A DNA stretch of 64,000 bases, from positions 1,011,575 through 1,075,574 of the forward strand of contig NC_049995.1 of assembly GCF_000003815.2 (NCBI RefSeq). Reading direction: 5' to 3'. A program made the position numbers and the translations under genes. This DNA is from Branchiostoma floridae. Lineage: Eukaryota; Chordata; Leptocardii; Amphioxiformes; Branchiostomatidae. Numbering within the stretch: the first letter of the stretch is position 1; every line of letters starts with the position of its first letter. Under the pieces are notes generated by a model. The model worked only from the letters and a program-made list of their open reading frames with translations. It did not search any database and was not told the DNA's origin. Below, in pieces: positions 34,940 through 57,307 of this stretch.

Positions 34940-35053
34940 TCATCTCTTACTGGAAGTCTTCAGTAGCCCCTTGATGCAGTGCACCCGAGCTATCCCAGCC
35001 TGCCCTGCTGACAACAGCCATATATGGCATCCAGGGTTTGGGTTCCAGGCAAC
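34940..35053 (-). CDS. GTF3C2: GTF3C2 exon 19 (last, stop TGA)
   Basis: After CTCAG it reads VAWNPNPGCHIWLLSAGQAG and ends in TGA at 34942-34940. It aligns with the final propeller segment of human GTF3C2 (the motif around SGGQSGLVRIHFV), and its IARVHCIKGL continues the match. Phase 0 start fits exon 18, which ends EAVHK. The protein stops soon after, without the longer human tail. Confidence 0.85.
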   Translation of the reverse strand, partial: VAWNPNPGCHIWLLSAGQAGIARVHCIKGLLKTSSKR

Positions 35054-38000
35054 CTGAGGAAGTCAGAGGCAAGATCAGAATGACTGAACTTCACTGAAGG
35101 AATGAGTGAACTAGGGGGCCCAAACTTATATAATTCTGTCCAAGCACAAAAGCTATCTGTGGGGACGAGATATCAAAACCGAAAAATCAGCTGCAGTACC
35201 TAAGGAAGCCACTAGGGGCCCAAAATCTAATCACTTCCAGTTTTGTGCAATAAAATTCGTGCAAATACTTCAGCACCCCTGCTGTTACGACTTGTGAAGA
35301 CATTGCTGACCTTGTGTACAGCCTCCACAGTAGTGCTGTCAGGTCTGCTGTCCTTCATAGTGTCCAGCTTACGCAGCCTGATGAACTCTGGGTTACTGCT
35401 GTTCTCTTCAAGACAGCTCTGAAACAAGAAAGATTATTGTTAAACTGTAATATCCAACACAAAACCCAAATTTCGGACTAAACAGCACCAGTCTTTTTCA
35501 AGGAATGAACAATCCACTTCTGTCGTGACGTCACGTTATGCAAATAGAACACGTGACTCAGTAAGCTGCAGAGTGAACATACGGTGGGTGCCATAGACTT
35601 CCTGCAACCTATGATCCACTGCTCACTGAGTCACGTGTTCTATCTGCATAACGTGACGTCACGACAGCAGTGGATTGTTCATTTCTTGACAAAGACTGGT
35701 GCTGTTCAGTCGAAAATTTGGTAAGTCCAATTTTTGTGTTGGTTATTATTGATTTTTTATAGAAGAAAAGCGTGTCATAAACGTTGATTATCATACAGAC
35801 ATTATCACATACCTACATGTAGCCATAGCTTTATGATGAGATCTAGTTGTTGTTAGTCTGGCCCTTTACCTTGCTGGCCTAGCTGGATCGTTACTTTTTT
35901 TGTTTGCCATCATCTTTACTTGCATGGCTGGGCGATAACATCTCACTAGGGCTGGGTATCGGTACAGCGTACAAAACCGTTTTTTCTTATTGGACCGGTC
36001 CAGAAAAACCGGACCTGAAAAAATCAAGTGAACCGGATGTTGGACTGATTAGAAAATTAACAGATTATTTTATCAGGCATTCACACGTTCTAGCGCTTGC
36101 AGATGGAAGAAAATAACAATAGTGAAGTAGAGTAGAGTTTATAGTAATGTCTACCAAGCTTTACAGCCGGCAATCATACAGGTGCAGTTAGCGTTGTATG
36201 ATTTTAAAACGCCAGTGTAAGTCTAATACTCCACCAAACGGAATTCTTTGCAGTAAAATGAACCATTGGTATGAGTCATGCCTCAGGTCCAGGTTCAGGT
36301 CCGGACCTGGACCTAATCCTTTGGACCTGAACCGGACCTGAATTTTCTGTACCGGTACCCACCCCTACATCTCACCATCGCTTCCTGAACCATCACTTTG
36401 TTCCAATTACATTTAAATTTAATTACTAGAAAACAGTCCAGCTCTAGTTTGAGGCTATTTAATTATCATACTTACCAGGTCAGTGTCCTTAAACACCAGT
36501 TCATATTTCCCAACAAGGTCGGAGTAATTTTGCAGTCTTGTCTCCTTAGTTTGTTTCCCAGCTCCTGCTGCCAGGTCCCCTAGAGAAATGCTGTCGTCCT
36601 GTGAGTTGGATTTCTGGCAGATGGAACCCTGTGATTGGTCAGACATAGCGGTGCCATTGGTGAGAGCTGGCATTGTGGGAAGTGTCTCCTGATGGACCAT
36701 GGGATAGCACACTGGCAGAGTTACAAGAGGTGTCCGTGACATGTCGGGTCTGGCCGTCTGATTCGCTCTCTGTTCTGCTGGCATTGTGGGAAGTGTCTCC
36801 TGATGGACCATGGGATTGCATGCTGGCAGAGTTACAAGAGGTGTCCGTGACATGTCGGGTCTGGCCGCCTGATTCACTCTCTGTTCTGCTGGCATTGTGG
36901 GAAGTGTTTTCTGATGCACCGTGGGATTGCACACTGGCAGAGTTACAAGAGGTGTCCGTGACATGTCGGGTCTGGCCGTCTGATTCGCTCTCTGTTCTGC
37001 TGTAGTCCTGGTCGCTACACCCCGACAGTGGCACAGTCCAGTCATCTTCTACGAACGGGTGATCTCCTACCGGTGTTTCTGACTTCTGACCTTGCTGTTG
37101 GTCCTGATGTACCACAGGTTCCAGGTTAGTGGGATTGGAATCTTCCTGGTCATGACTACGTGACGTGCTTGGCTCCTGTGGCTGCAGTGATAAGGCACTA
37201 GTGTGATGAGGTAGACCATCTCTGCAGGATGCCTGCACGTCCAAACTAGCCCCAGTTTGTGCTTGCTGTAACGTGCACCCGTTCTGTCCTCCCTCGGGAT
37301 TTAAACTTCTGTTCTGAGCTTTATTATCAAACTTGCCTAAATCACTTAATACAGAAGGGTTCTGATTGGTTAGGACAGAATTTCCCTGGTCTCTGATTGG
37401 TTGAATATGACTTGCTGCTTTCTTCCTTTCAGTAACAGTGTGTTGTTTACTTGTTGTCTTTGTCTGAGGCACACACTTGGGGTCAGAGGTCTTCATGGGG
37501 TCGTGAACCTTATAGGGTCGGAGGTTAACCGTGTAGACAGGCTGTAAGAGAGAGAAGAGGTTCAAAATAGTACGACACACTATGTGCAGTATAATAAGAA
37601 TTTTGCACATGCATAGAAAAATCTGGAGGATCAAATTGAGGTTGCAGAATCACCCATGCTGACAGAGATCCTGATTGTTGATGTCTGTCGACTTCCATCA
37701 CAATCTCTTGATTCTGCCTCTACCTTAAAATTTTGAAATTCTCAAAATGGTATTATGATTGATTTTGTCGCTGTGACCCCTTCATTATGAACTCAAGCCA
37801 CTGTGAAAATGCCTGATTACGGACATACTTTATCTTCTACAAAATTAGAATCCTGCCAACTCCGAATTTTTACAGTACATTCAAAAGTGCATTCATTATC
37901 AGCAAACATAAAAAAAAACGTTTACTATAATCAGTTCATTTGCAGCATACCTTACCCTGTATTGTAACACTAGTTCACCTTTGTCCGCAGGGTAACCTAT

Positions 38001-41000
38001 ATCCATTGTTTTTCAAAACAGGGTATTTAGGCACATCCAGTCGACGGGTGATAGTTTTAAATTGCAATAAACTGAAAATATTGCAATTTGAAAGCAGCGT
38101 CCGTCGACGTGATATCCTCAAGTACCTTGTTTTAAAAGCAACGGATAAAGGTTACCCGACGGATATAGGTGAACTAGCGTTAATATACATGTAACTTACA
38201 AATCTGAAGAAGGACCTGTCCGTGTGTGGGTCCAGTATGGGGCAGACTGTCCCCACCACCTCTCCTGCACAGTCAGCACTCACCACACAGTTCCTCCAGG
38301 GGTTGTAGGAAACACTCTGGTAAAGGAAATATCTTACTATCAACAACAGAATGGTGCAACATGCATCATGTCATACCTGGGCCATGTTTCTTCTATTCTG
38401 AACTATTTTGCAACTTACAGTAAGCAATTCACAAGTTTGCATTGCCAGTGGGTTAGCACTTGAAATTCAAGTAAGGACATTGTATACAAGTCCATCACTT
38501 CCAGTTCTTTATTTGTCAATAAATGAGTTTTTAAGTTCTACACTTAAGTCCCATAATTATATATATATAGATTTGTGTAAGACTTGCCTCAAGCTGGGAA
38601 TGGAGATTGTGTACTTTAATGGAGAAAATGTCAGTACCAATTGTGTACATGTAGTTGGGCTCACCCAAGTCGTGGCGCTGTGAGGGGTGATGGGCAGGGT
38701 ACTGTTCTTAACATCCTGGCCATTTGCAAAGAAGAAGTGGACACTCCTCATGTTGGAGCGGGAGTAACAGCTGCAGTCCACAGCTGCAAACACACCTGGG
38801 AAGTGCAGTGGCCAGGCCAGCGTGCGGACAGCTGACCACTTGGACTGCTGGATGGGTGAGATGGGCGCCTGGGTGTCCCAGAACTGGGCATGGAGAGGGA
38901 GCGATTAATTTAGAGCTTGTTAGGTACTGTAATCAGTTGTACACTACATGTACAAATTTATATAAATGAAGTTTATTTGCAAAATCATGCCCGAAGGCTA
39001 ATTGCAGGAACATTCTCGAGGGAAACAAAATACAATGTAGTACAGAGCACTAATGTCTATTCAGCTGAAGTTGCATCTTATTATTGGATTTGACTTCTTC
39101 TAACATATAATGAAACAAGCTCTATTAGGCACTTGACATAACTGGCGGGGTGTAGCCATTGTAGTAATTAATCCTGCTTGTCTACAACATTGGTGCAGAG
39201 CCAAACCAGACTTCCAATGCCACAAGCATCATATTGCACCCTCTCCTACATTTTGGCAGGCTGCCACTCTAAAATATCAAAACTATGGAATCACACGAGG
39301 AAAAACAAACTCTAACTGATAACAATATCTCCATAGTTGTGATGGCAGACCATGTGTCCCTGTCAATTATTGCTCGTTGTAGGCTGTCAACTTCAAGGCC
39401 TGTGTCTTTCCTGAGCCTATGTCTATGCACGTTGCCAATGCATGTATGCCAAGTATTTCAAGCCCTGCCATCTACATATAGTTTCATTGGGTTTTGGATA
39501 CTATGGTCCCGTGTCAATAGTGTCACAAGCACTTTAAATCATTACCTTGATATGCCTATCCAGACTTCCTGTAGCAATAAACCTGGAGTTGTTCTGACTC
39601 CAGACAACAGAGGTAACGACCCAGTCGTGAGCGATGAACATGAGGTAGGTCTTCAGTATAACAGGAGGGACCGCAGGGGTGGTCGGAGGGGACACTCTCA
39701 GGAGTGGGGACTGAGATTGGAGGTCCCACATACCAACTGTTCCTGTAGGGTAGGAAAACAAACTAGCAGTTAGACTCTGAGGAGTGGGGACTGAGACTGG
39801 AGGTCCCACATACCAACTGTTCCTGTAGGGTAGGCAGAAACAAACTAGCAGTTAGACTCTCAGGAGTGGGGACTGAGACTGGAGGTCCCACATACCAACT
39901 GTTCCTGTAGGGCAGGCAGAAACAAACTAGCAGTTATACTCTCAGGAGTGGGGACTGAGACTGGAGGTCCCACATACCAACTGTTCCTGTAGGGTAGGAA
40001 AACAAACTAGCAGTTAGACTCTCAGGAGTGGGGACTGAGACTGGAGGTCCCACATACCAACTGTTCCTGTAGGGTAGGCAGAAACAAACTAGCAGTTATA
40101 CTCTCAGGAGTGGGGACTGAGACTGGAGGTCCCACATACCAACTGTTCCTGTAGGGTAGGAAAACAAACTAGCAGTTAGACTCTCAGGAGTGGGGACTGA
40201 GACTGGAGGTCCCACATACCAACTGTTCCTGTAGGGTAGGCAGAAACAAACTAGCAGTTAGACTCTCAGGAGTGGGGACTGAGACTGGAGGTCCCACATA
40301 CCAACTGTTCCTGTAGGGCAGGCAGAAACAAACTAGCAGGTAGCAGTGATATATAGTACATATTTGATTACTTCTGCAAGGGATGAACAGCGACGCATGT
40401 AACATTTGGTCAGCGACTTATATATCATCATGAGCAAAGGGACCATTGAAACACCAAGTGATATTAATCCTTTGTTGAGCATTAAGCACAATGCACACTG
40501 TTCCATACACTGTTATATCTTGGCCAAATGACTTGAAATTTGATATGAGCATACCATGGGGATACAGACTTAGAAAAATATTTTGATGAGGTTGACAATA
40601 TATTTTGGGCTGCTGTTTGACTCTGAAGATTGGTACACACAAACTCACCATCATAAAATCCAGCAGCCAATCGCCGGTGCCCTTCATCTGGTTGCCAAAC
40701 AACTGTAAAACACTGGCCATGCTCACTATAAGGTTGGTTGCCATGGAGACCAGATGCGTTGAGGACCAGTTGGAACGCTGGTTCCACAAGGTACATGTGG
40801 TGTAAGGCATGATGGGAAACAGCCTGCTTCTCTCTGATTGGCTGCAGTGCTTCTGGATGAGGGATACTGAGAGGGGAAAATCATGTCAACGTTAATTTCT
40901 TGAAGTTGTATTCTCACAGAGTCTGAAAAACATTTATATTTCAACTTGTCAACATGCATCAAGGTCATTAGAGCTCTTGACTGGTTGTTCCATCTTGAAG

Positions 41001-44000
41001 ACTTGCTTGTCAGGCGAGTTAAACAACACCCAGGATTTGGACTGCTCAAATCTACCCATGAAGCTACAGCGTATGCCCAGTCCAGTTACACCCCTAACCC
41101 TTAACCCCTAACCCTTAACCCCTAACCCTTAACTATTCCTTACCTGATGACTCGAACTCCTCCATCTGAACAGGCCACAGCCAACAGGCCAAGTCTGGGC
41201 AGTACTCCTGGGGGGGTCTGTACTGCAGGGGGGTTCTGTACTGCAGGGGGGTTCTGCGCTGCAGGGGGGTTCCACTGTGGGGGATCCCAGGCACCAGTCG
41301 GACACCACTTCATGTCCCAAACTGTCCCAAACTTGTGGGCCATTCCCAGGGACAAATAAGGCATGTCCTTGGCACTGTAAATGTACAAAAGTTACACAGT
41401 TTAGCTTTATATCAATGTATTCATGCAAACAACAACACCATTAATCCTGTACAGACAATATACATGTACAACAAATGAACCATTTCTGCTTCTTACCTGC
41501 AGTTTTCCAGATCCCCCAGACACCATAACTGAATCATCCCTGGTTCCTTGGAGACCTTGTCGATTTCATGTCTTGCATCCATACAACGATGGCAGCTGAT
41601 CACAGCATATTGTGCTGCGTGCGGTCCCGCTGTCGGACACCACTCCGCTCCCCATATCGGACCCCCCACAAAGAACGTAACACTCCGCTCATTGTTATGT
41701 GTCGATAGTGATTCGAATAAAGCGATAGTTTCTGTCTGTGACTTCTTGGACTTTTTCCCAGACTGTACAGTGACTGGCAGGGAGTGAGTGGTTGTTGGGA
41801 TGTACTGATGTATAACAGCCCCTGTGAGCTGACAGAACTGGTCCTTGTGTGGTCTCCTGTCAGGAAACACTTCCTGGATGTCATGCAGCTCTCTCCTGTA
41901 GAAGAAATCAGATGGTTTAGCAGGTTTCATTCACTTGAAGGTAGTACATGTAGTGCGTACCTAAAACCCAGGAACTGGAATTGGACTTGTAAAAACATTT
42001 AGGACCGAGTCTAAAAAAACTTAAAGTCACGAACCAAGTCCAGACTTGCAAAAAACTATACCCAGTTATATTCCCTTTTTTTGTTCTCAACCATCAAAAA
42101 CCTTCCATAGGTAGTAAAATTTGCACTTTAGAAAAAAACAAAAAAACTTTTCATGTTTATTACTGACCTTTTGTGTTTACACTGGCTATAATTTACATGT
42201 ATTTTTCACATTGCATGTTAATTTAAGCTATTTTATATGTACCAACCCTCCAAAAGAAAAAAATTTTAGCAGTACATAATATGTAATGATGCGTTCAACT
42301 TCAAGTCAAGACCTACATTGTAGTACTTCTACCAGTGCTTACAGATAATCAATCAAATGTTTCAAGACTGTACCCAAACCAGGATATACATACCTGAACG
42401 TGTTTCCTCAGGATGGTATGACACAGGGTTGTAGCTAGCCTGAAATCATTTTCCGTCCCCTCGATTTTGAATCCTATCGAGCACCCATGCATAGAGACAT
42501 CGCTAGGGGGGGTCAAAATTTTGTAATCTAGACCCTCTGAAATGCTATTTCCTGCATTTTGAGGTGTAAATTTTGCTGCTAGACTAAGTTGTTCAACTAA
42601 GTTGTTCAACGACATCTGTTTTGGTGAAGAATTACACAAGGGAGACAGTTTTATCACATCTTTACAGATTGATTCTTGTCCGTCACAGAGGACGGAATGG
42701 GCAAATTTCTTTCTTTCCCCAGCTGCAAAATTCCGTCAAAAGAAAAATACAACACTTTGTATTCTGCATCCCCCGCAGTGATGCAGGCCTTCTGCCTTCA
42801 GGGGATCCTACCTGTGGTCAGGACGGTACATGTGCCTCGGGTGATACGGAAAACATATAGAATACAACACGGTGTATTCCCTATCACCCGAGGTCACGGT
42901 GATCAACGGCCGAAGGTCGGAGGGTGATCCAACCCCCGGGAGAGCTGGGACTGATGCGGAATACATCACGTTGGATTTTATTCATGTCATACCCACCTGA
43001 GAAAACGCAAGTTTTGATGCGAAATGCGCCAGAAGTTGAGGAAATTTGGTGACCTTGAATAAACATCGTTACAACAGCAATGTTCCAACATCCAAATCAG
43101 GTATTCGAGTTTTCGACCGTGCAGCACTGCCGTGTGCAAAGTATGTTTGAATTATTTGATGGAAGCCTGTGTGATACAAACTGGAAGCCTGAAATGTGTG
43201 ATACAGCTTTTTATAACACGGTCCGGAACACCTGTATCGGACGTTATCGTGGCCCAGGTATGACATAAAACATGTTACATTCTATACATGTATGTTTCCG
43301 TCTTAGGGTGCCTATTGGAGAGATGACAGTTGATGTTCCTACCCTACCATGTGTCAGTCCAATCCTGTGCCTGGCTGAGTGGCTGGTATCTGACGTGTCG
43401 TTTTAACTTGTGGTGCGTACGCCGAGCTGCGGAGTGCGGTCTGCCGTCATCTTCATCTGTATGGGGGAGGGGGACAATTATGTTCCAGACTGGCAAAAAA
43501 ATGTTGGTTGTTGTTGTTTATTAAGAAACCTTTTAGCCCAAGGTTCAAACAATCAACATGACTATACACCATACATTTAAAAAAAATACAACAATCAACA
43601 ATCAAAGTATTTACAATAGAGCACAGTGTCTATAGGTCAAAGGTCTAGGTGACAATGTTTGAGATGGCTTGTTTAAAACTGGACAGTGTATACAGTGACT
43701 TAATGTCAGATGGCAATGAGTTCCAGAGCATAATTGCTCGGTACAAGAAGGTACGTTTTCCACTGTTTGTTTCAGGTTTAGGTAGTCTGAAGTTGTTAGA
43801 TACAGAAAATTTAGTATTATACATGTGGGATGAATTAACTGGTATGAAGGAATTGTACACATTTTGTGGTTCGTGGGTTTTCCCGTGACCCGCTGACTAT
43901 AGCAAAAACTTGCAGACTCCAGCCTTTTTTTTTGATCGGTCGCTGGCCAAGGACATGAGATTTTCAATCAAAATCNNNNNNNNNNNNNNNNNNNNNNNNN

Positions 44001-50000: not shown

Positions 50001-53000
50001 TATTTCTGCATACCACTGGTGCAAGTAACATTGAAAATTATCTGCACCAGACAAATTTTACCTGCACCACTCTGAATTTAAGAAGTATGGATCATACTAA
50101 AATTGTTCACAAACCATTGCTATTTTTCCTTTGAAATCATACTTTATAGGTGGTAACAGTCGATGCAGCTAATAACAATCCATACTTTGTACATTAAAGT
50201 TCATTATGTATAAAACCCAGTACATGTTACAGTGTAGGTTAGATGCAGGTAGACATCAGAAATACCTGCACAGCTCCAATTTTACCTGCACTAACCTGTA
50301 TATGCAGGTGGTATTTCGAGCCCTGTATAAGATGATGTAACAGTAAAATCCAACCTGGCAGCCGCTCGCCGTTTAGATTTCCCAGGCGTCACCCCACCTT
50401 CTCCAGACTCCCCCGCGGGACTGTCCATTCCCCCGACCACGGTGTCAGGTTCTGGGGTCGGGGCGTGGATGGTACGCTGGTGCAATCGGAGCCCAAGGGC
50501 ACTCTGGTACGTTTTCTCGCACTGGTCACACGGGAAAACTTCACGCTCGTTTTCAGACTTTCCACAGCGCCTTACGTGGTACTCATACCCATATACGGTC
50601 GTATAGCTAGACGAACAACCCTGGAGAAACAAGAAATAAAAGATCTCAAACCTCAGTGAGTTTTCCTATTGCCATAGCTTTAGCCATTCAATTCTATAAT
50701 CACATGCATGTATCAACATTGCATAGACATAGATTTGAAAAAAAGGTGACCTGACTGATGTTGATTTTTACAATAAAATACAAAATCAACACATTACATA
50801 TAACCTACATCCCTAACATGACAGTTTCCCATTTATCTTGTACCTGATTGTACAGTCGGCTTGTAATGTCTCAGGTAGACTGGTGTATCTAAAAGACTTC
50901 TGCAGTCCTTTTGTTCTTGCTGGGGTTGGAGATTGCTGGTTTGTTACTGAGTGAATATCCTACTTAGCAGTGGAGATCTTAGAATACACAGCACCAGCCT
51001 TACCAAGGAGCAAGTACAGAAACTCGAACTTGTCCAAAAACGCGCATGCCGAATCATACTTGGTACCACCTACTAGGGGTGGGTACCGGTATAGAAAATT
51101 CAGGTCCAGGTCCAGTTCAGGTCCAGACGTTCATTATGTGAATGGACGATACTGAAAACAATGGTCCATTTTGCTACAAAGAAATCTGTTTTGTGTAGTA
51201 TTCGACTCCCACTGGCGTTTTAAAAATCCTACAAGGCTAACTGCCTCTGTACTATTGACTTTAAAACGTGGTAAAAATGACTTTAGAGTCTACCCTGCTT
51301 CGCTCTTGTTATTTGCCTAGACCGGTAAGCCCGAAAACGTGCGAATGCCTGATGATATTTTTCAATCGGTCCAACATCCGGTCCACCGAATTTTTTGAGG
51401 TCCGGTTTTTCTGGACCGGTCCAATGAGAAAAAACAGTTTTGTACCAGTTTTTTTACCCAGCCCTACCACCTACTCTGATTATCCACACGCCCTTCAAAA
51501 CGTCGGACTAACATCGCTGGCAGACAGGAGAGAACATCTGTGCCTGAACTTTGCAAAGTCACTGTTGACATCATCCTTCAGGGACTGGCTCCGGCCGGAA
51601 CACTCAAAACAAACAGAAACTGAATGCTGCACTATGCTGTACCAATCAACACAAAAACTCTCCCATTCCATACCTGATGAAACTGTTGAACGAGTGACTT
51701 AGCTAGACATTTGAACCTACATTGAATTTTTGTTGTCTTGTAGAGGTTGTTTGAGGAGTTTGACAGCATCCTCCTCGCCCCTAGGCCTCCCTTCTTCAGA
51801 CCATAGATAAATTAGTTTAAGTTTCAAGCCAATCAGTTTTCTAGATTCTTCACATACTTCAGTCTTTGTAGTTGCTAAATTATTATTTTTACCTCATTCT
51901 TCTTGTACAGCCTTCCAACATACCTCGTTCTTGCACTGCAGTTTTCCCAGTTTCTTCAAGATGAACCTCAGTCTGGCTCTTTCCTGTAAACAACAGGAGA
52001 CTTACTGTTTTTACTTAAGACAGTGCTTATGCTGTTATACAACAATGTACATGCAAGTTTCTGCATGAATTTACCTAAAATGGTGTTGATTTGATTATAT
52101 GGATGACATCTATGTGCTCATCAATTTCACTTTTTTTCTAAGTGTTTCCAAAAAAAGTTTTGCAACCATGCTGCAAATTGTACAAATCTGAAGCAAAATA
52201 AGCAAATATATGCTATAGATCTTTGAAAAATAAAATTGGAAAATGTACTATTGTCATCAATGCCAAGTTCAATTTTGAGGTTTAAAAAAGACAATGTGAG
52301 AGAACAAAAATGAAGAGTCTATTGTTCAGTATTCAATATTCTGTGTTGGGTCATTTGTTCAGCCTTCCCAACCTATTATATTTCATAATGAAGGCAACTT
52401 TTTTTGGTCCTAAACTGTTTTTTACTTGCATGCTCACATCAAAATAGAAGTTCCCAGGGGTGTCATCCGTATAATCAAAGCAACATGGCCTTGTGGATAA
52501 TGTCAAACTGTAGGTCTTATATACACCTTTCTCACGTGGCGGCCATGATAGATTGAAGACGATGTCAGTGAGGCAAACAAACAAAACTTATTTCTAAAAT
52601 CAGCTCCCATTTCGTTTTTCCCCAAACCACACAAATTTTCACAATACAAGATCAAATAATAAATATTATAACTAGTGTTATGCAGCAAAATATATATGTA
52701 GCAATTTAGACTCGCGTACTGATCCCATATGCAAAATAAAAACATAATAATGCAAATATTTGACGGATATGCAGCCATTCTCTTATTGGTCAACTTTATA
52801 ATTTCCATGCTATCATTGGTTGAACTGCTAATTATGATGGACAGTCTTTGTTTAACTCATTAAACTCGTTTTAGATCTTTCATGGCCACCGCGTGAGAAA
52901 GGTGTATAGGTTAACGTAATGAACCCAAAGGAAATATACCATGGTCATTCATTCTATGTTGAGGACAACATAAATCCTACATTATGAGAGAACTTTCAAC

Positions 53001-56000
53001 AGTCTCCAAACACACATTTCCTGTTTATGGCAGTTACAAACTGCAATTACAAAAATGTAGCTATATAAACATATACATATATATATATATATATATACAT
53101 TTCTGCGAATATTGTACCTGTAGAGACTCTGATCGCGACATCTACTAGCATAATACACGATTCTACCGGTAGACATCGTGATCAGAGTCTCTGTCAACAA
53201 AAACTCCGATCAGGGTAGGGATCTCTAATAAAACTATGATCAGGATCTCTACTGGTAGAATCACCCATTCTACCAGATCTCAGTCTCTACCCTGACATAT
53301 ACATATAGGCACTTTTCTTACAAGATTTCCAGTAGTCTATGGTGTAGATTGGTTGTATAAATATATGCACTTGACTTACATTAAGTGGTTCTTCCTGAAC
53401 AGGTGAGGTAGAGTGGACACTGATGAGATGATACTTCAGTGCACCTGTAGTGGTGAACCTGGCATCACACTGGCTACACTGCAGCTGCTGGGCTGTCTGT
53501 ACAGAAAAGGAACAAGGAAGTTTAAGAAAGAAAGATATCATACTAGGGACCACACTGCTCAGGGTTCTAGCCAGGATTTTATTTTAGCGTGGTGGGAATG
53601 GCATGGTAGCAAAGCGACTAATCAGGATAATGGTGTGGAAGGGGGGGTCTTGGTCCTTCCACAGTGAGATTTGAAGATGTAGAGTTAAAAGTTAGGACTT
53701 TGGGGTCAGTTTTTAGTGGCATATCATCATTTTTCATTGTTCAGACATTTATTAGTCATTGTTGAACAAGCAAATGACAGCAAAGCACCACTACACTTAG
53801 TCACTAGTTAAAAATTAGCGTAGTGGCCCTTGTTTTAGCGTAGGGGGTCACAAATTTTAGCGTACTGGCCCACTACGCTAAAAAGCACTAGCTAGAACCC
53901 TGCGTGCTTCCAGGACAGGTGCAGGCAACATACCAAACTACATATGAATGCGACAACGGGAACATACAGATACAGATGCGAACGTGCGTTACATTGACCG
54001 AACAAACTAACAATAATCTTTATTGGATGTCCATGCCCGTAAGCTATATGCACTAATGGATATAATCAAAAAGGAAAAAACAGTCATGTGGTCTTATGGG
54101 TGAAAAGGAATAACAACACACTGGTTACACCTGGTGTCAGGTGTCTGTACAGAAACTGCAGCTAGCAGATTGATGTGGATTGAGGAGTGGACCAGAATGA
54201 ATCCTTGAGTGGACCAAGGATCAATCCTTGTGGACCCCCCCCCCCCCCCCCCATGAACCTAATACTAAGTACTACCAGTACATGTAGTACGTACCTGTAC
54301 CTTGCCTTTGCAGCTGTTGTAGTGCCTCCACATAGATGTGACATTTTTCCTGTGACAGCCGCACTTTGAACAGACACACTGACCCTTCCCTTCAACTTCT
54401 TGTCTCCATGTGTTCTGTGAGTGTCAACATACTGAGTTAGGAACACTCATGCACTTTGAACAGACACACTGACCCTTCTCTTCAACTTCTTGTCTCCATG
54501 TGTTCTGTGAGTGTCAACATACTGAGTTAGGAACACTCAAAAAGGTATAAAACATTTACACATTAGAGTTACATGACAATCTATTTTGATCATTATCATG
54601 TTCCTGTCGTTTACGAACAAGCTAAGGTGAGCAGTTTTTTACCGACCTCAATAATAACAGTAGCACTAGTAGATTAATGCATGCACTCACCATCATGTGA
54701 CCATAACAGTACAAAATATTGACAACAAATTTGACGGCCGTGAGAAAGATGATTTTCTGGCAGCATTGGGATACTGTAAATGCAGAAACTTTCGTGGTGG
54801 ACTAATGTTCGCGGTTTTCGCGGCGGCCGCTTCACCGAAATTTAAAACCATTGCAATCATTTTTCCATAACAGTAAAAGACTACAGTGTATGGTGCTACC
54901 GCGAAATTAAAACCACCGCGAAAAGTCCATTTTCCCGCTACCGCGAAATTAAATCTCCGCGAACTTAAATGCATTTACAGTATGTCCTAATACAGGAATG
55001 GAACTTATATTCCCAAACCTAGTAAGAATTTGTGCACACATAAACATTTTGTATATATTTACCAATAACTGTTAGTAAATATGAATTATGCTTATCTTAT
55101 TTACCACATACCATAACAGCTGCTTCTTTTTCATCTTCTCCAACCTTCCCCATAGCTTCCTTCTCCATTTCTTTATCTGACTCATCATCATCATCAGGCG
55201 ATGGTTCCCGAACTCTCCTCCGACATTGCCTGGTAGGTCTAGGTGTCACGCCTTCATCCAAAATGAAAAAGACAAACTTAAAGTTATACTGTAATTCACT
55301 TTGTCTTCTCAGTACCAAACTTTCACAGTCTTGAGTCTGAGATTTAACTTGTTCTTGGAACTAAATGTTCACAGTGAACAAATTATTTGTTATTGTCACT
55401 AAGACGAATTATTTGTTATCGGTAATGATAATAAGTTCATGTTACAGTTGTCATCGTGAAAATTGTGAACATACTAGTAAAAGTACATTGAAAAAATCAG
55501 GAATTACAGCTTGTAAATGCATATAAGCTTGAGGGGATTTAATTTTTTGGAAGCCGGGAATGTTTGCAACTAGTGATTTTGGATTCATATGGTAGCAGGC
55601 TGTACCATACTGTAAATGAGGAGATGTTTGTGGTGGTTTTATGTTCGCGTGTGACCAATTCACCGCGAACTTTAAACCACCGCGAACATGTTTCCATTAT
55701 TTATAGTATGAGACTGCAGTCAATGGCGCTACCGGGAACACTCCATTTTTCCACTACCGCAAAAGTAAATCAACGCAAACTTAAATGCATTTACAGTACT
55801 GTACTAGTAGTAGTCACCAACTGTAGTGGAAAAATGTTTGTGGTGGTTTTGAGTTCGAGTCAAAGCGGCCACCACAAAAAATGTGTACTTAGTTTTACCA
55901 AATTTACCAAAAAACAGTAACCTGATCCTATACAGAAAATTAATAATTTTGTATGATGCATAAATCTTCCAAAATATAGAAACTTTGAAATGAAATGTAT

Positions 56001-57202
56001 TGTGCTTCAAAATACAAAAGTGAAAGGATTTCATGGTCATAAAACAAAATCAACTGCTTTTCTAAAAATGTATCTTTGTCATATTTTCTCTGACCCTTAT
56101 TTTTTCTTTCTTACCCACCCTCTTCACATTGGTCTATCTTCAATCTGAATACAGCCATATATAGCAATGGCTTGAGACTATGTAATATTGAGGAATTTCA
56201 CAGAGACTAGCAAGGAACCAGTCTTTTGCCTACTAGAAGCCACTTACAGTACAGTAGAAGCCAATTGCACAACGGATAACTGCACACTTCTGTTAATTGC
56301 ACTAGTAGTGATCGGTCCAGCTGAATAACTTTGCTTTGTTGCACCATCCGGATAATTGCACACAATGTGCTGACAAATGGGGAGTGCAATAAAACGGCTT
56401 TGACTGTAGTAGTACTAGGTAGTGGGTAGTACTAGTAGGCTTTAATACATGTACCTTCTCTCTTGCTGCAATGAAAAGTGACCTGCACGCCAATCTGAGC
56501 TTCTCGGGGATGAAAACAAAAGGTTCAAACAGACTTACTTGATGACCCTGTTCTGAGTCTCGGGCGTTTCCTGGAGATTTTCTCTTCTCCTCCTGTCATT
56601 TTCTCTATCCCTCCTTCTTCTCTGCTCCCTTCTTCATGAGGCATTTCTGCATCACTATTATCAGAGGAGACTCTACTTCTTTTCTTCCTTTTTTCCTCCT
56701 CTCTCTCCAAAGTCTTCTTGTTTTTCTTCCCAGGTGGTCTACCTCTCCTCTTTCTCACAGGGGTAGCTCCAGAACTTCCAACCACATTGTCTGTTTTTTC
56801 CGTCTTTCCTTCTATCTCTCCATCCAAATTGAGCTTCTCGTCTGTTTCAGTTGCTGTGGATTTTTGCTGCCTTGTGTCTGGTGTTGATAAACTTTCTACT
56901 TCAGACCTGCCTTTATTCTCATCACTTTCACTGCTGTACTTCTTTGTTGGTGTCCTCAGTCGACCTGTTCTTGACCTCATAGACCCCACTAGAATTTTGA
57001 CCCTGCCCCTTTGACCTGAGCCCCTTCCAAATGGTATCTTCGGAGAAACTTTAGAAAATTGTTCAAGGTCTTCCCCATGCAAGAGTGATGATCCCCTGCC
57101 CGTGGGGATCACAGGCTGCCCCCTCCCCCTGGGTTGCCCTTGGATGCGTCCCTGGTGACCAGCCCTTACTGAGGATTGCATCACTTCACCACAGTCCCAC
57201 AT
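34940..57202 (-). CDS. GTF3C2: Composite ZNF512-GTF3C2 gene: TFIIIC 110-kDa subunit with N-terminal zinc fingers (19 coding exons)
   Basis: Coding exons, 5' to 3': 57202-56539, 55251-55112, 54414-54301, 53496-53380, 51983-51924, 50620-50355, 48918-48765, 47705-47613, 45794-45593, 43456-43348, 41895-41497, 41374-41144, 40866-40649, 39742-39546, 38883-38665, 38316-38200, 37541-36476, 35418-35311, 35053-34940. All introns are GT-AG and all phases agree. The last nine exons match human GTF3C2, a WD40 subunit of the TFIIIC sub-complex that recognises tRNA B boxes in the nucleus. Exons 3-9 match human ZNF512 finger by finger. The product is about 1,528 residues, against roughly 910 for human GTF3C2. 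Exon 17 has a one-base frame conflict, so the locus is either mis-sequenced there or damaged. Start choice: the first ATG after an in-frame stop in a spliced 5' exon beginning at 57307. Confidence 0.85.
35110..35225 (-). repeat. Fragment of the 7.9-kb repeat family in the last intron
   Basis: Shares CTAGGGGGCCCAAACTTAT and AAGGAAGCCACTAGGGGCCC with the minus copy at 33.2-34.2 kb. Confidence 0.5.
35311..35418 (-). CDS. GTF3C2: GTF3C2 exon 18
   Basis: A 36-codon exon between TTTCAG and GTCAGC. It ends STTVEAVHK, matching the EAIHKV motif at the start of the last WD unit in human GTF3C2. It is phase 0 on both sides. A longer open frame runs past the donor to 35227, but homology ends at the donor, which supports the splice. 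Confidence 0.85.
35455..35741. repeat. Large fold-back in intron 17 with CRE and E-box in both arms
   Basis: Arms at 35455-35566 and 35621-35741 are reverse complements over about 110 bp (CAGCACCAGTCTTT, GAACAATCCACT, GTGACGTCACG, GAACACGTGACTCAGT). Each arm contains the palindromes TGACGTCA and CACGTG. The transcript could form a long double-stranded hairpin. A MITE origin is likely. Confidence 0.85.
35947..36367. mobile_element. hAT-type MITE (TAGGGGTGGG family), copy b, perfect 8-bp duplication
   Basis: Starts TAGGGCTGGGTATCGGTA and ends GGTACCCACCCCTA. The identical 8-mer CATCTCAC stands on both sides (35939-35946 and 36368-36375). Orientation is opposite to copy a, judged from the CAGGTCC repeats. 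It lies in intron 17. Confidence 0.9.
36476..37541 (-). CDS. GTF3C2: GTF3C2 exon 17 with 111-bp repeats and a frame conflict
   Basis: The exon starts PVYTVNLRPYKVHDP, matching the human FPIYKADLIPY segment, and ends YELVFKDTDL before GTAAGT, matching human LLFQDTDL. Between these anchors lies a Ser/Thr/Glu-rich insert absent from human, including three 37-residue repeats (SRTESESDGQTRHVTDTSC type). The exon is 1,066 bp, yet both flanking junctions are phase 0, so it should be a multiple of three. The 5' frame stops at 36641; the 3' frame opens only after a stop near 37049. A one-base indel, a sequencing error or an unseen intron must lie in 36,640-37,050. Confidence 0.8.
36666..36998. repeat. 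Three tandem 111-bp repeats inside exon 17
   Basis: Units begin at about 36666, 36777 and 36888 with GCTGGCATTGTGGGAAG and are highly similar. 111 is a multiple of three, so copy-number change keeps the frame. All three units stay open in two minus frames and one plus frame. Confidence 0.95.
38200..38316 (-). CDS. GTF3C2: GTF3C2 exon 16
   Basis: A 39-codon exon between TTTACCAG and GTAAGT. It reads WRNCVVSADCAGEVVGTVCP, matching the human GTIAAGDISGELIAAILPD blade, and ends FFRF, which continues into PVYTV as in human RRFPIYK. Phase 0 at both ends. Confidence 0.85.
38665..38883 (-). CDS. GTF3C2: GTF3C2 exon 15
   Basis: A 73-codon exon from CCCAG to GTGAGC. It begins FWDTQAPISPIQQ, matching human KFWDLRRPYEPINS, and contains FPGVFAAVDCSCYSRSNMRS, the counterpart of the human YNGVTVAQDNCYASYG segment. 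Phase 0 at both ends. It supplies one propeller blade. Confidence 0.85.
38957..39015 (-). mobile_element. LINE 3' tail fragment
   Basis: AGTTTATTTGCAAAATCATG followed by CCCGAAGGCTAATTGCAGG is the reverse complement of the tail at 10.63-10.69 kb, with small differences. Only the extreme 3' end is retained, in intron 14. Confidence 0.5.
39546..39742 (-). CDS. GTF3C2: GTF3C2 exon 14
   Basis: Starts after CCCTACAG with GTVGMWDLQSQSPLLRV and contains AHDWVVTSVVWSQNNSRFIA, matching human [20 protein letters not shown]. It ends SLDRHIK at GTAATG. Phase 1 to 0. The first ~55 bp of this exon, together with the end of the preceding intron, is repeated seven more times directly upstream, so this acceptor is the last of eight near-identical candidates. 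Confidence 0.9.
39689..40345 (-). repeat. Eight-copy tandem array of intron 13 end plus exon 14 start
   Basis: The unit is 80 or 82 bp. On the minus strand each copy holds CTAGTTTGTTT(TC or CTGC) CTACCCTACAG, an intact acceptor, followed by GAACAGTTGGTATGTGGGAC and CTCAGTCCCCACTCCTGAG. Acceptor marks (TCCTGTAG on the plus strand) stand at 39741, 39821, 39903, 39985, 40065, 40147, 40227 and 40309. Use of any but the last leads to TAA shortly after the exon copy. Copies are nearly identical, so expansion is recent. Confidence 0.95.
40649..40866 (-). CDS. GTF3C2: GTF3C2 exon 13
   Basis: Starts with the split codon of SIPHPEALQPIREKQ, matching human SLPHPEALLAQQP, and holds GQCFTVVWQPDEGHRRLAAG, matching human [24 protein letters not shown]. 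Donor GTGAGT. Phase 2 to 1. Typical WD blade. Confidence 0.9.
41088..41132. repeat. Telomere-like CCCTAACCCTTAA array in intron 12
   Basis: Three copies of CCCCTAACCCTTAA followed by CTATTCC, ending 12 bp before the donor of exon 12 (minus strand). It mixes TTAGGG-type and TTAAGGGG-type words. An interstitial telomere-like microsatellite is the simplest reading. Confidence 0.8.
41144..41374 (-). CDS. GTF3C2: GTF3C2 exon 12 with NPPAVQ repeat
   Basis: Reads GTVWDMKWCPTGAWD then LPRLGLLAVACSDGGVRVI, matching the human IWDLKFCPSGAWE and LPRLGLLALACSDGKV pair. Between them lies a lineage-specific insert made of six-residue repeats (NPPAAQ, NPPAVQ, TPPGV) encoded by CTGCAGGGGGGTTCTG-type units. 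Phase 2 at both ends. The match is strong and diagnostic. Confidence 0.95.
41497..41895 (-). CDS. GTF3C2: GTF3C2 exon 11 (start of propeller)
   Basis: Reads RELHDIQEVFPDRRP then, later, SVTFFVGGPIWGAEWCP and MIQLWCLGDLENC. The latter match human WDVSFFTGGPLWALDWCP and LLQLWGLGTLQ, the first propeller blade. Acceptor TTCTACAG, donor GTAAGA, phase 2 to 2. A lysine-rich insert (GKKSKKSQ) sits in the middle. Confidence 0.9.
42690..42960. repeat. Palindrome-rich repeat in intron 10
   Basis: Inverted words such as CCTCGGGTGATACGGAA and TTCCCTATCACCCGAGG surround TAGAATACAACACGGTGTATT. It resembles a MITE, but its ends are not clear. Confidence 0.45.
43348..43456 (-). CDS. GTF3C2: GTF3C2 exon 10, the bridge between zinc-finger and WD40 parts
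   Basis: Acceptor CCCCCATACAG, donor GTAGGG, 109 bp, phase 1 to 2, exactly what exons 9 and 11 require. It encodes DEDDGRPHSAARRTHHKLKR, then a segment ending QDWTDTW. The acidic start continues the acidic end of exon 9 and the basic run resembles the tail of ZNF512. The TW plus RELHDIQEVFP of exon 11 aligns with human WKWHLLSELEAAPYLP. It is short and would be missed by ORF searches. Confidence 0.75.
43510..43905 (-). mobile_element. 3' end of a LINE, inverted, in intron 9
   Basis: The minus strand reads KRTFLYRAIMLWNSLPSDI followed by SLYTLSSFKQAI, the C-terminal pattern of animal non-LTR ORF2 proteins, with a stop near 43645 and an A/T-rich tail to about 43515. The 5' part is lost. Confidence 0.7.
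43976..44171. other. Assembly gap (196 N)
   Basis: A run of 196 N, not the 100-N placeholder, so it may be a sized gap. It lies in intron 9. Confidence 0.99.
44172..44295 (-). mobile_element. LINE 3' tail, inverted
   Basis: Minus-strand AGGTGTGACGGGT, AACCAGCTGCTACC-type blocks (here plus-strand words), GCGAAGCTGGTGTGTTGCCC and a TATATAGATACATAA tail match the 3' end of the LINE at 48.96-49.33 kb. The coding part is hidden by or lost at the gap. Confidence 0.6.
44296..45565. mobile_element. hAT-type MITE (TAGGGGTGGG family), copy e, interrupted
   Basis: Left part 44296-44393 (CAATCGGTCCACTGATTTTT, GACGGTTTTGTACCGGT) and right part 45520-45565 (ACCGGTACACC, CAGGTACCAACCCC) are the pieces of one MITE, split by the 1.1-kb fold-back element at 44394-45519. 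Confidence 0.55.
44394..45519. mobile_element. 1.1-kb fold-back element with GC-rich compound termini
   Basis: The left end GTGACAGGGATTTCGCCCCC and right end GGGGGCGAAATCGCTGTCAC are inverted copies, flanked by ACCGGT on both sides (44388-44393 and 45520-45525), a possible 6-bp duplication that is itself a palindrome. About 130 bp inside each end repeats GCGATCTCGCCCCC-type words. The interior (44.56-45.38 kb) is A/T-rich without a recognisable gene. It is inserted inside a hAT-type MITE. Confidence 0.75.
45593..45794 (-). CDS. GTF3C2: GTF3C2 exon 9: C2H2 finger and acidic tail
   Basis: Starts RPEGVGGMFKCLQCPREF and completes a C2H2 finger (C-x2-C-x12-H-x4-H, ending YHLRREH), which matches the last finger of human ZNF512 (YKCLLCQKEF, then SGVKYHINSVH). 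An acidic Ser/Asp-rich stretch follows (STSDDSLSDGSE). Acceptor TTTCAG after a T-run, donor GTGAGT, phase 0 to 1. Confidence 0.85.
46035..46943. other. Assembly gap (909 N)
   Basis: 909 N in intron 8, between the inverted repeats of the Penelope-like pair A. Open frames running through it are meaningless. Confidence 0.99.
47158..47196 (+). ncRNA. Hammerhead-like core, mutated
   Basis: CTGACGA (47159-47165), stem GGATAG/CTATCC (47167-47172 and 47179-47184), then CAAA where the core needs GAAA, then CGTC and TGAC. The G-to-C change removes the invariant G12, so this copy should be inactive. Confidence 0.4.
47346..47428 (-). pseudogene. tRNA-Leu(UAG)-like pseudogene
   Basis: The minus strand reads GTCAGCGAGACCGAGTGGTC, then TAAGGTGCTGC, an anticodon loop TTTAGAT (UAG) and GGATTCGAATCC as B box. 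The A box GAGTGGTCTAAGG is typical of tRNA-Leu. The 5' acceptor strand GTCAGCG cannot pair with the sequence after the T arm, and the anticodon stem has a mismatch, so I call a pseudogene. It lies in intron 8. Confidence 0.65.
47613..47705 (-). CDS. GTF3C2: GTF3C2 exon 8: C2HC finger
   Basis: A 31-codon exon holding one finger: DCPYEDCPKTYTSLIGLKAH then LTQCDK (C-x4-C-x12-H-x3-C). Human ZNF512 has the counterpart CPNQGCEAVYSSVSGLKAH with a Cys as last ligand. Acceptor ATTCCAG, donor GTAAAT, phase 0 at both ends. Confidence 0.85.
48320..48730. mobile_element. Penelope-like inverted pair B with an intact hammerhead-like core
   Basis: Inverted repeats 48322-48432 and 48626-48727 share TACACCAAAAAGTAGTTACT, CAAGCAACTGG, ATCCACTATCCTTCGTCAGT and GACACTGAAGTGATCTGG. 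The arrangement and the ribozyme-like core are those reported for the terminal repeats of Penelope-like retroelements. No reverse transcriptase is present. Confidence 0.6.
48647..48688 (+). ncRNA. Hammerhead-ribozyme-like motif
   Basis: Order on the plus strand: GTCA (48647-48650), CTGACGA (48651-48657), one extra A, stem II GGATAG-TGGATT-CTATCC (48659-48676), GAAA (48677-48680), CGTC (48681-48684), TGAC (48685-48688). GTCA and TGAC can form stem I, AC/GT is a minimal stem III and GTC the cleavage triplet. The extra A before stem II departs from the textbook core and may reduce activity. Confidence 0.5.
48765..48918 (-). CDS. GTF3C2: GTF3C2 exon 7: linker matching ZNF512
   Basis: Encodes (R)ALLHLQEIVDGEERV then ITPQQIQKWTRDIK. 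Human ZNF512 has AVYHLQELASAELAKEW and SQEVLHKWKTDIKK at the same place between fingers. Human GTF3C2 itself keeps a similar RRAAQVALLYLQELAEEL. Acceptor CTCTAG, donor GTACCT, phase 2 to 0. Confidence 0.85.
48955..49330 (-). mobile_element. 3' end of a LINE, inverted, in intron 6
   Basis: The minus strand reads RNRDCHAFKYQSYQPRIDVF then KNPYFPRTIVEWNLL, the same C-terminal block as the LINE at 28.6 kb, followed by a 3' untranslated region with GCGCCTGCGAAGCTGGTGTG and an ATACAGATAC tail at 48955-48975. Confidence 0.8.
49470..49925. mobile_element. hAT-type MITE (TAGGGGTGGG family), copy c, diverged
   Basis: Starts TACGGGTAGGTACTGGTA and ends CAGTACCCACCCCTA. The interior has GTCCAGTTCAGGTCC words. 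Flanks ATCCCTGC and ATCTGTAC agree only partly, so the target duplication has decayed. Confidence 0.7.
49985..50325. mobile_element. Element with CAGGGCTCGAAATAC termini (hAT-like)
   Basis: The ends CAGGGCTCGAAATAC and GTATTTCGAGCCCTG are perfect inverted copies. The interior has CCTGCAC repeats. A relative begins at 63734. It ends only 28 bp from the donor of exon 6. Confidence 0.8.
50355..50620 (-). CDS. GTF3C2: GTF3C2 exon 6: C2HC and C2H2 fingers
   Basis: Starts GCSSSYTTVYGYEYHVRRCG, completing a C2HC finger begun in exon 5, then FPCDQCEKTYQSALGLRLHQ and RTIH as a C2H2 finger. Human ZNF512 has [21 protein letters not shown] and a C2H2 finger in the same order. A Pro/Gly/Glu-rich linker and KSKRRAAAR follow. 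Acceptor TCTCCAG; donor GTTGGA is weak but phase and homology support it. Phase 0 to 2. Confidence 0.85.
50960..51760 (+). mobile_element. LINE ORF2 C-terminal fragment split by a MITE
   Basis: 50960-51073 reads LTKEQVQKLELVQKRACRII, the thumb-like segment of non-LTR reverse transcriptases. The frame resumes after the MITE at 51467 with YPHALQNVGLTSLADRREHL and CLNFAKSL, and stops near 51700. Both parts belong to one element interrupted by the MITE at 51074-51466. Confidence 0.75.
51074..51466. mobile_element. hAT-type MITE (TAGGGGTGGG family), copy d, inside a LINE
   Basis: Starts TAGGGGTGGGTACCGGTA and ends TTTACCCAGCCCTA. The identical 8-mer CCACCTAC stands on both sides (51066-51073 and 51467-51474). 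It interrupts the LINE coding sequence, so the MITE is younger than the LINE. Confidence 0.92.
51924..51983 (-). CDS. GTF3C2: GTF3C2 exon 5 (20 codons)
   Basis: Reads ERARLRFILKKLGKLQCKNE, which human ZNF512 matches as RERLRTVLKRLGKLRCMRE, immediately before its C2HC finger. Acceptor TTTACAG, donor GTATGT, phase 0 at both ends. It is too short for ORF searches; homology makes it firm. Confidence 0.9.
52524..52904. mobile_element. 381-bp MITE with CACCTTTCTCACG termini
   Basis: Left CACCTTTCTCACGTGGCGGC and right, inverted, CACCTTTCTCACGCGGTGGC, each followed by CATGA, flanked by TA. No coding capacity. It lies in intron 4. Confidence 0.85.
53060..53300. repeat. (AT)n tract and AGAGACTCTGATC inverted words
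   Basis: An (AT)n run at about 53074-53098 is followed by several direct and inverted copies of AGAGACTCTGATC/GATCAGAGTCTCT and TCTACCGGTAGA-type palindromes. Confidence 0.6.
53380..53496 (-). CDS. GTF3C2: GTF3C2 exon 4: C2H2 finger
   Basis: 39 codons from CTGTACAG to GTAAGT: TAQQLQCSQCDARFTTTGAL, then KYHLISVHSTSP. One C2H2 finger, matching the human ZNF512 finger CHHCGKQLRSLAGMKYH with its trailing NHNSLP. Phase 0 at both ends. Confidence 0.88.
53564..53904. mobile_element. MITE with CAGGGTTCTAGCCAG termini
   Basis: Ends CAGGGTTCTAGCCAG and CTAGCTAGAACCCTG are inverted. The interior near the right end repeats TTTTAGCGTA(G/C)(T/G)GG. The termini resemble those of the hAT-type element at 58.14 kb. 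Target duplication is unclear. Confidence 0.65.
54301..54414 (-). CDS. GTF3C2: GTF3C2 exon 3: first zinc finger
   Basis: 38 codons: NTWRQEVEGKGQCVCSKCGC, then HRKNVTSMWRHYNSCKGK. Cys pairs and a final H-x4-C make a C2HC-type finger. Human ZNF512 has QWYLEIVDKGSVSCPTC and later LKKHMENCK here. Acceptor CTCACAG, donor GTACAG, phase 0 at both ends. Its first 54 bp and the intron end are duplicated immediately upstream. Confidence 0.85.
54361..54539 (-). repeat. Two-copy duplication of intron 2 end plus exon 3 start
   Basis: 54361-54450 and 54451-54539 are nearly identical (period 90). Each copy carries, on the minus strand, GTTGACACTCACAG as acceptor and AACACATGGAGACAAGAAGT of the exon. The upstream copy runs into TGA soon after its exon part, so only the downstream acceptor yields the finger. 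Confidence 0.95.
54774..54980 (+). mobile_element. CCGCGAA-type MITE, TA-flanked
   Basis: Starts CTGTAAATGCAG, ends ATGCATTTACAG, with TA outside both ends. The interior has GTTCGCGGTTTTCGCGGCGG and CCGCGAAATTAAA words. It lies in intron 2. Confidence 0.88.
55112..55251 (-). CDS. GTF3C2: GTF3C2 exon 2: basic then acidic linker
   Basis: Encodes (S)VTPRPTRQCRRRVREPSPD, then an Asp/Glu/Lys-rich run ending EAAVM before GTATGT. Low complexity, so support comes from splice sites (acceptor GATGAAG, donor GTATGT), from phase 1 to 0 agreement with both neighbours and from the basic/acidic style of the ZNF512 N-terminus. The acceptor is less certain than the others. Confidence 0.65.
55610..55796 (+). 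mobile_element. CCGCGAA-type MITE, TA-flanked, plus a fragment to 55880
   Basis: Starts CTGTAAATGAGG and ends ATGCATTTACAG, flanked by TA. A further partial copy (GGAAAAATGTTTGTGGTGG, then CGGCCACCAC) follows to about 55880. It lies in intron 1. Confidence 0.8.
56252..56406. mobile_element. Pogo/Tigger-like MITE
   Basis: Ends CAGTAGAAGCCAATTGCAC and GTGCAATAAAACGGCTTTGACTG-type (about 22 bp, imperfect) are inverted and flanked by TA. CAGTNGAA-type ends with TA are typical of the pogo group. 155 bp, no coding capacity. Confidence 0.7.
56539..57202 (-). CDS. GTF3C2: GTF3C2 exon 1 (start codon, AT-hook)
   Basis: The ATG at 57202 follows an in-frame TGA in the same exon, whose acceptor TTTCAG lies at 57308. 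The 221 residues are basic and disordered: Gly/Arg-rich 16-70 (QPRGRGQP), an AT-hook KRRGRPPGKKNKK at 151-163, then an acidic/basic mix and KRPRLRTGSS. AT-hooks are found in TFIIIC subunits of this class. Donor AA|GTAAGT, phase 1. Residues 1-7 (MWDCGEV) faintly resemble the human GTF3C2 start. Confidence 0.8.
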
Positions 57203-57307
57203 ATGATGTCATATCCTGGTTAGTGACATCTTCGGGGGATGTCACTTCTGGTGATCCAGGAAGTTGCAGCTGCTGATTTGTCTGCCATCTAGCTAAAATG
57301 CTTTGGT

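Follow-up and report, generated by a model that had tools for sequence, protein, structure and literature searches.

The window, i.e. the whole stretch of 64,000 nucleotides of Branchiostoma floridae DNA that was analysed, very probably carries on its minus strand one gene encoding subunit 2 of TFIIIC (the orthologue of GTF3C2/TFIIIC110), with a zinc-finger array of the ZNF512 type placed N-terminal of the propeller. Exons 1-9 (57181-45593) and exons 11-19 (41895-34940) were delimited by AG/GT borders chained from the DNA around open stretches, and a candidate for exon 10 lies between the two groups. The exons are as follows, in the order in which they are read.

Exon 1, 56539..57181, minus strand: basic/acidic N-terminus, with a segment, RKRRGRPPGKK, that we take to be AT-hook-like; alternative in-frame ATG at 57202
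Exon 2, 55112..55251, minus strand: basic/acidic linker
Exon 3, 54295..54414, minus strand: finger 1, C2HC; matches ZNF512 EEQWYLEIVDKG
Exon 4, 53380..53496, minus strand: finger 2, C2H2
Exon 5, 51924..51983, minus strand: linker ERARLRFILKKLGKLQCKNE and start of finger 3
Exon 6, 50355..50620, minus strand: finger 3 (C2HC), finger 4 (C2H2) and start of the RRAA..HLQE linker; weak donor (-0.2)
Exon 7, 48765..48918, minus strand: HLQE linker and KWTRDIK
Exon 8, 47613..47705, minus strand: finger 5, C2HC (Pfam ZNF512_C2HC)
Exon 9, 45593..45794, minus strand: finger 6, C2H2, followed by an acidic tail; phase 1 at its end, strong donor (8.1)
Exon 10 (proposed), 43348..43456, minus strand: bridging exon of 109 nt, EDDGRPHSAARRTHHKLKRHVRYQPLSQAQDWTDT plus a W codon split across the junction with exon 11
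Exon 11, 41497..41895, minus strand: homology to GTF3C2 begins (GGPIWGAEWCP...)
Exon 12, 41144..41374, minus strand: propeller
Exon 13, 40649..40866, minus strand: propeller
Exon 14, 39546..39742, minus strand: propeller; acceptor and first bases within a minisatellite
Exon 15, 38665..38883, minus strand: propeller
Exon 16, 38200..38316, minus strand: propeller
Exon 17 region, 36476..37541, minus strand: a strand of the propeller, a long insert that carries 37-aa repeats, then the KYELVFKDTDL strand in another frame
Exon 18, 35311..35418, minus strand: C-terminal part of the propeller
Exon 19, 34940..35053, minus strand: last matched part, VAWNPNPGCHIWLLSAGQAGIARVHC, and stop; TGA at 34940

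Exons 1-9 chain without phase conflict and, with the candidate exon 10 included, exons 1-16 together with the first 900 nt of exon 17 make up one open frame of 1395 codons, which reaches most of the propeller. Apart from the donor of exon 6, weak splice sites are found at the acceptors of exon 3 (0.0) and exon 7 (0.5). The preliminary description of this DNA had placed the edge of the gene at 57307, which is the base after an acceptor-like TTTCAG; the coding start is to be placed at one of two in-frame ATGs, at 57181 or 57202. A direct duplication of 90 bp (54361-54539; two copies, 98%) takes in the start of exon 3 and the sequence upstream of it.

In the finger half, the order of the elements is C2HC, C2H2, the LKKLGKLQC linker, C2HC, C2H2, the linker RRAAARALLHLQE, KWTRDIK, C2HC and C2H2. 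It had been proposed that exons 3-9 reproduce the order of human ZNF512, including LKKLGKLQC, HLQE and KW..DIK, and all these elements were indeed present and colinear with a provisional ZNF512 sequence. The finger half aligns end to end with this sequence, with 116 identities over 286 aligned residues and a score of 499, whereas 500 shuffles gave 69 at most; of the 85 residues of the human sequence that align to 2ctd, 83 agree, with two mismatches at the start of the stretch, and the remainder is provisional. The features typical of ZNF512 and ZNF512B are found, namely atypical C2HC fingers alternating with C2H2 fingers in three pairs, and the linkers LK(R/K)LGKL and RR.A..A...LQE...W (the human rows being provisional). 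The Pfam ZNF512_C2HC model scored 40.4 bits on the finger half, with a cut-off of 27. The fingers had been expected to return ZNF512 or ZNF512B first in a protein search; when they were run against the PDB, KIAA1196 came first (2gqj, E 1.2e-7) and ZNF512 second (E 3.2e-6) among the 60 matches listed of the 70 with E<=1. KIAA1196 is a synonym of ZNF512B.

Exons 11-19 encode a WD propeller. A phmmer search with this half matched human GTF3C2 (8cli_C) with an E-value of 5.7e-81, over residues 31-565 of a query of 570 residues, whose pieces around exon 17 were joined by hand, and up to residue 885 of the 925 in the chain; the proposal that these exons reproduce human GTF3C2 is borne out. The further statement that there are 19 minus-strand exons with fully compatible phases holds in part: the AG/GT borders are where they had been placed and exon 19 ends with its TGA at 34940, but exon 17, read as one exon, runs into a TGA at 36641, ahead of exons 18-19, which are in another frame. 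The exon 17 region is probably made up of two exons. Within it, 200 candidate introns restore the frame under loose thresholds, the best of them having a GC donor after 37337. The frame calls for either an extra intron or an indel in the 111-bp repeat of this exon, and both are plausible from the sequence because the repeat is present in three copies. This tandem repeat (36666-37002; 94%) is open in two frames and is located at the required frame change. A second repeat array, an 82-bp minisatellite of eight copies (39694-40343; 96%), extends over the acceptor of exon 14 as well as the first bases of that exon, giving a row of near-identical copies of an acceptor plus exon start.

The joint between the two halves is the critical point of the gene model. 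Exons 9 and 11 cannot be joined directly, since the former ends in phase 1 and the latter requires an incoming phase of 2. The candidate exon 10, which the preliminary description had left unspecified, has an incoming phase of 1 and an outgoing phase of 2, and gives a phase-compatible chain across exons 9-10-11. In the gap between exons 9 and 11, three stretches pass mild splice thresholds and fit the phases, the best being 43456-43348; under stricter splice thresholds the gap yields no candidate. Of 48 plus-strand windows that have the length of exon 10 and overlap one another, none attained its splice score of 9.29, a test that is weak on its own because the best of those windows reaches 9.1; the donor is mediocre (2.9). 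Codon use was also evaluated. In the required frame exon 10 scores 0.397, as compared with 0.141 and -0.215 in the other two frames, and this value was reached by six of 768 stop-free intronic stretches (a pool that includes the exon 9-11 interval). It is central among the scores of the other exons of the gene, which have a mean of 0.364 and were themselves the training set. Exon 10 contains no ATG in the required frame and three out of frame.

Comparison of the joint with the human protein adds little. When residues 1-379 of human GTF3C2 were compared with the window by tblastn, no significant match was obtained in the exon 9-11 interval, exon 10 included. Only in a global alignment is the W codon formed where exons 10 and 11 meet matched by a W of human GTF3C2. 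This match was given little weight, because locally exons 9-11 align best with the human protein through acidic and basic stretches and not through that W.

The copy number of both halves was assessed by searching the assembly, which consists of 513,431,437 bases in 431 contigs. The finger half gave seven matches among the 129 candidates that were scored out of 164, and every one of them falls within an exon of this locus. For the propeller half, single copy was judged on exon 11, whose one match at E<=0.001 was itself (3/3 candidates scored). Because the fingers and exon 11 match this locus only, the assembly shows no separate ZNF512 and, judging by exon 11, no separate GTF3C2. Exon 10 likewise matched only itself, in a search that skips very common words. 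The Pfam family PF21276 had no match in the assembly, but 14 control genomes were equally silent, so that this search says nothing.

The claim of a single composite gene is well supported by these data. Exon 10 fits in phase, splice sites, codon use and its single genome match; a search of the readable (non-N) sequence between 45590 and 43470 for ATG-led exons, 400 nt long at most, that end in phase 1 with a donor above 2 gave none, and so no alternative first exon between exons 9 and 10; and the genome searches gave no second place for the fingers or for exon 11. It is for these reasons that we read the locus as one composite gene. The same DNA could also be read as two tandem genes, i.e. a ZNF512-like gene ending after exon 9 (...GECTVFF, stop) and a GTF3C2 gene starting from the ATG at 41930 (MKPAKPSDFFYRREL...). 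Reading exon 9 beyond its donor does lead to a stop after seven codons, there is an in-frame ATG at 41930 just ahead of exon 11 and directly after a TGA, and the human genes are two. We nevertheless consider this arrangement quite improbable. The extension to the ATG at 41930 coincides with the pyrimidine tract belonging to a good acceptor (6.9), and this extension has T at -3; the first AATAAA after exon 9 (44832) sits within an inverted-repeat element. The coding signal of exon 10 and its exact phase fit would be left unexplained, and the resulting GTF3C2 would be devoid of the linker that human GTF3C2 has. In addition, repeat-like sequence and N take up, by our own assignment, all but 237 of the 2136 bp that separate exon 10 from exon 9, and intron 9 would offer scant space outside the repeats for another promoter and a conserved 3' end.

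The repeats of this interval include the element just mentioned (44385-45528), which has inverted terminal repeats of 30 nt that are 97% complementary, and two pieces that recur in the window; a 196-bp N gap also lies in intron 9. The stretch 43520-43900 looks like the 3' end of a LINE, and its 83-aa ORF had no Pfam match. A second pair of inverted repeats (22 nt, 86%) spans 42402-43006 in intron 10. It is also conceivable that one gene with alternative ends produces both a finger-only and a full-length protein, which would be compatible with a composite gene. The stop seven codons into intron 9 and the AATAAA signals of that intron would agree with this possibility, but the first AATAAA is in repeat sequence, and we regard it as unlikely.

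N-terminal of its propeller, human GTF3C2 contains a short element, RR.A..ALL.LQE, which had been noted to fit the linker between fingers and proposed to be a leftover of the lost finger region. The sequence is real: residues 1-379 of human GTF3C2 as used here are identical to the PDB chain, and no C2H2-like or C2HC-like pattern was found in them. A linker profile of 27 positions was built from one row of the window and two provisional human rows (ZNF512 and ZNF512B). Among 177,635 distinct PDB sequences this profile ranked GTF3C2 at the top (E 0.0016), ahead of a second match with 0.91; the 64-aa linker of the window, used alone in phmmer, failed to recover GTF3C2 from the PDB at E<=10. It had also been suggested that the segment be aligned with ZNF512, and the provisional ZNF512 linker, aligned with GTF3C2 residues 1-340, was equalled by 2 of 20,000 shuffles of the linker and by 0 of 5,000 shuffles of GTF3C2. 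For the provisional ZNF512B linker no shuffle was as good (0/20,000 and 0/5,000, respectively), and the window linker was equalled by 71/20,000 and 27/5,000. With the same part of GTF3C2, the whole provisional ZNF512 gave an alignment that none of 3000 shuffles equalled, and the finger part in exons 2-9 one that was equalled by 50 of 3000; with exons 1-9 the best alignment lies elsewhere, and 260 of 3000 shuffles were as good. The presence in human GTF3C2 of a leftover of the finger-region linker is supported by sequence comparison. This support comes mainly from the resemblance of the human ZNF512 proteins to GTF3C2, between which the window sequence stands.

With respect to evolution, we favour a fused ancestral gene that would have been duplicated and would have undergone complementary domain loss in vertebrates. 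The ancestral gene would be a TFIIIC subunit 2 with fingers ahead of the propeller. In the vertebrate line, one copy would have lost the propeller and become ZNF512 and later ZNF512B, and the other would have lost the fingers and become GTF3C2, keeping a scrap of the linker of a finger pair. Duplication with complementary loss is favoured because GTF3C2 and the ZNF512 proteins of humans all carry the linker element, which is not accounted for if one gene simply split in two. That the composite gene also represents the ancestral state is likely in our judgement, and we infer it from one invertebrate locus.

The fusion may instead be real but specific to amphioxus, having arisen from two neighbouring genes, with the vertebrate gene pair as the ancestral state. 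The evidence comes from one species, adjacent genes can fuse by read-through, and the human genes are near each other, GTF3C2 and ZNF512 both presumably lying at 2p23.3. However, the RR.A..A...LQE common to human GTF3C2, ZNF512 and ZNF512B would remain unexplained, unless it is due to chance or to an older duplication, and we consider a late fusion to be rather unlikely. Pattern scans for stray animal contigs in viral and genome contig collections gave 4, 14 and 58 stretches, none of which was a relative by tblastn. The label 'zinc finger protein 512B' given to insect proteins in three papers is uninformative. Judging by the titles and the beginnings of the abstracts among the matches listed, we found no mention in the open-licence literature of a relation between ZNF512 and GTF3C2 or of the fused architecture. 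The latter may already sit unnoticed in public proteomes.

The surroundings of the gene were surveyed as well. Ten ORFs of the window, from outside the gene and from intron 9, were scanned against Pfam with one match, a reverse transcriptase fragment at 28786-29202 on the minus strand (RVT_1, 9.8e-15), and Rfam and tRNA scans of the 64-kb window were empty. The 100 kb flank contains 136 ORFs of at least 90 aa; eight were scanned, and four had a Pfam match, i.e. Ras (flank piece L008), TGF-beta propeptide (L010:5720-6376, 3.7e-21), sulfotransferase (L016) and reverse transcriptase. To our knowledge, none of these four belongs to human 2p23.3; with eight ORFs scanned, this does not amount to a test of synteny.

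The amphioxus gene may be compared with three human proteins. It resembles GTF3C2 (TFIIIC110; Tfc6/tau91 in yeast) in its C-terminal propeller and in the RR.A..ALL.LQE element N-terminal of the propeller; in human GTF3C2, however, this element is found in a finger-free N-terminus, whereas the amphioxus gene has six fingers there, and the amphioxus gene differs also in a long, repeat-bearing insert near the C-terminal end of the propeller. Human ZNF512 (567 residues) shares with the amphioxus gene its three C2HC-C2H2 pairs and their linkers, in identical order. Unlike the amphioxus gene, it presumably stops in a basic tail behind the last finger and has no propeller. Human ZNF512B, which is not known to have a propeller, shares the C2HC-C2H2 pairs and provided the top PDB match of the finger half (2gqj). 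It has four pairs as compared with three in amphioxus, and between the first and the second lies an extensive disordered region that bears a NuRD interaction motif, according to a report (PMC11602157).

As for function, the same report describes ZNF512B as vertebrate-specific and as binding DNA, oligomerizing via its fingers and aggregating chromatin when overexpressed (PMC11602157), and ZNF512/512B have been reported to recruit SUV39H to pericentromeric heterochromatin (PMC12920882). Human TFIIIC110 is reported to bind TFIIIC90 in the tauB core, and tauB has also been seen as a dimer through TFIIIC110, a point on which the authors urge care (PMC11811891). By analogy with human TFIIIC, the amphioxus propeller would dock on TFIIIC90 in the tauB core, and the fingers could add a second contact with DNA or chromatin beside the B-box. 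The two-part protein would tether TFIIIC either to DNA next to the B-box or to other repeats, and could gather the bound sites into clusters. After the split in vertebrates, DNA clustering would have stayed with ZNF512/512B and promoter assembly with GTF3C2. Taken as one explanation, the composite gene, the docking and finger-contact role and the ancestral-state history appear to us to have a good chance of being correct.

Beyond amphioxus, we lean somewhat towards the idea that the ancestor of animals had a TFIIIC subunit 2 with a six-finger DNA-binding array. ZNF512 and ZNF512B would be halves that broke away from a Pol III factor, and GTF3C2 would retain a fossil linker. If this is true, TFIIIC outside vertebrates has a DNA-reading module that human GTF3C2 lacks. 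If ZNF512 and ZNF512B do descend from a TFIIIC subunit, their origin would be explained, and a link between a Pol III factor and heterochromatin would become testable.
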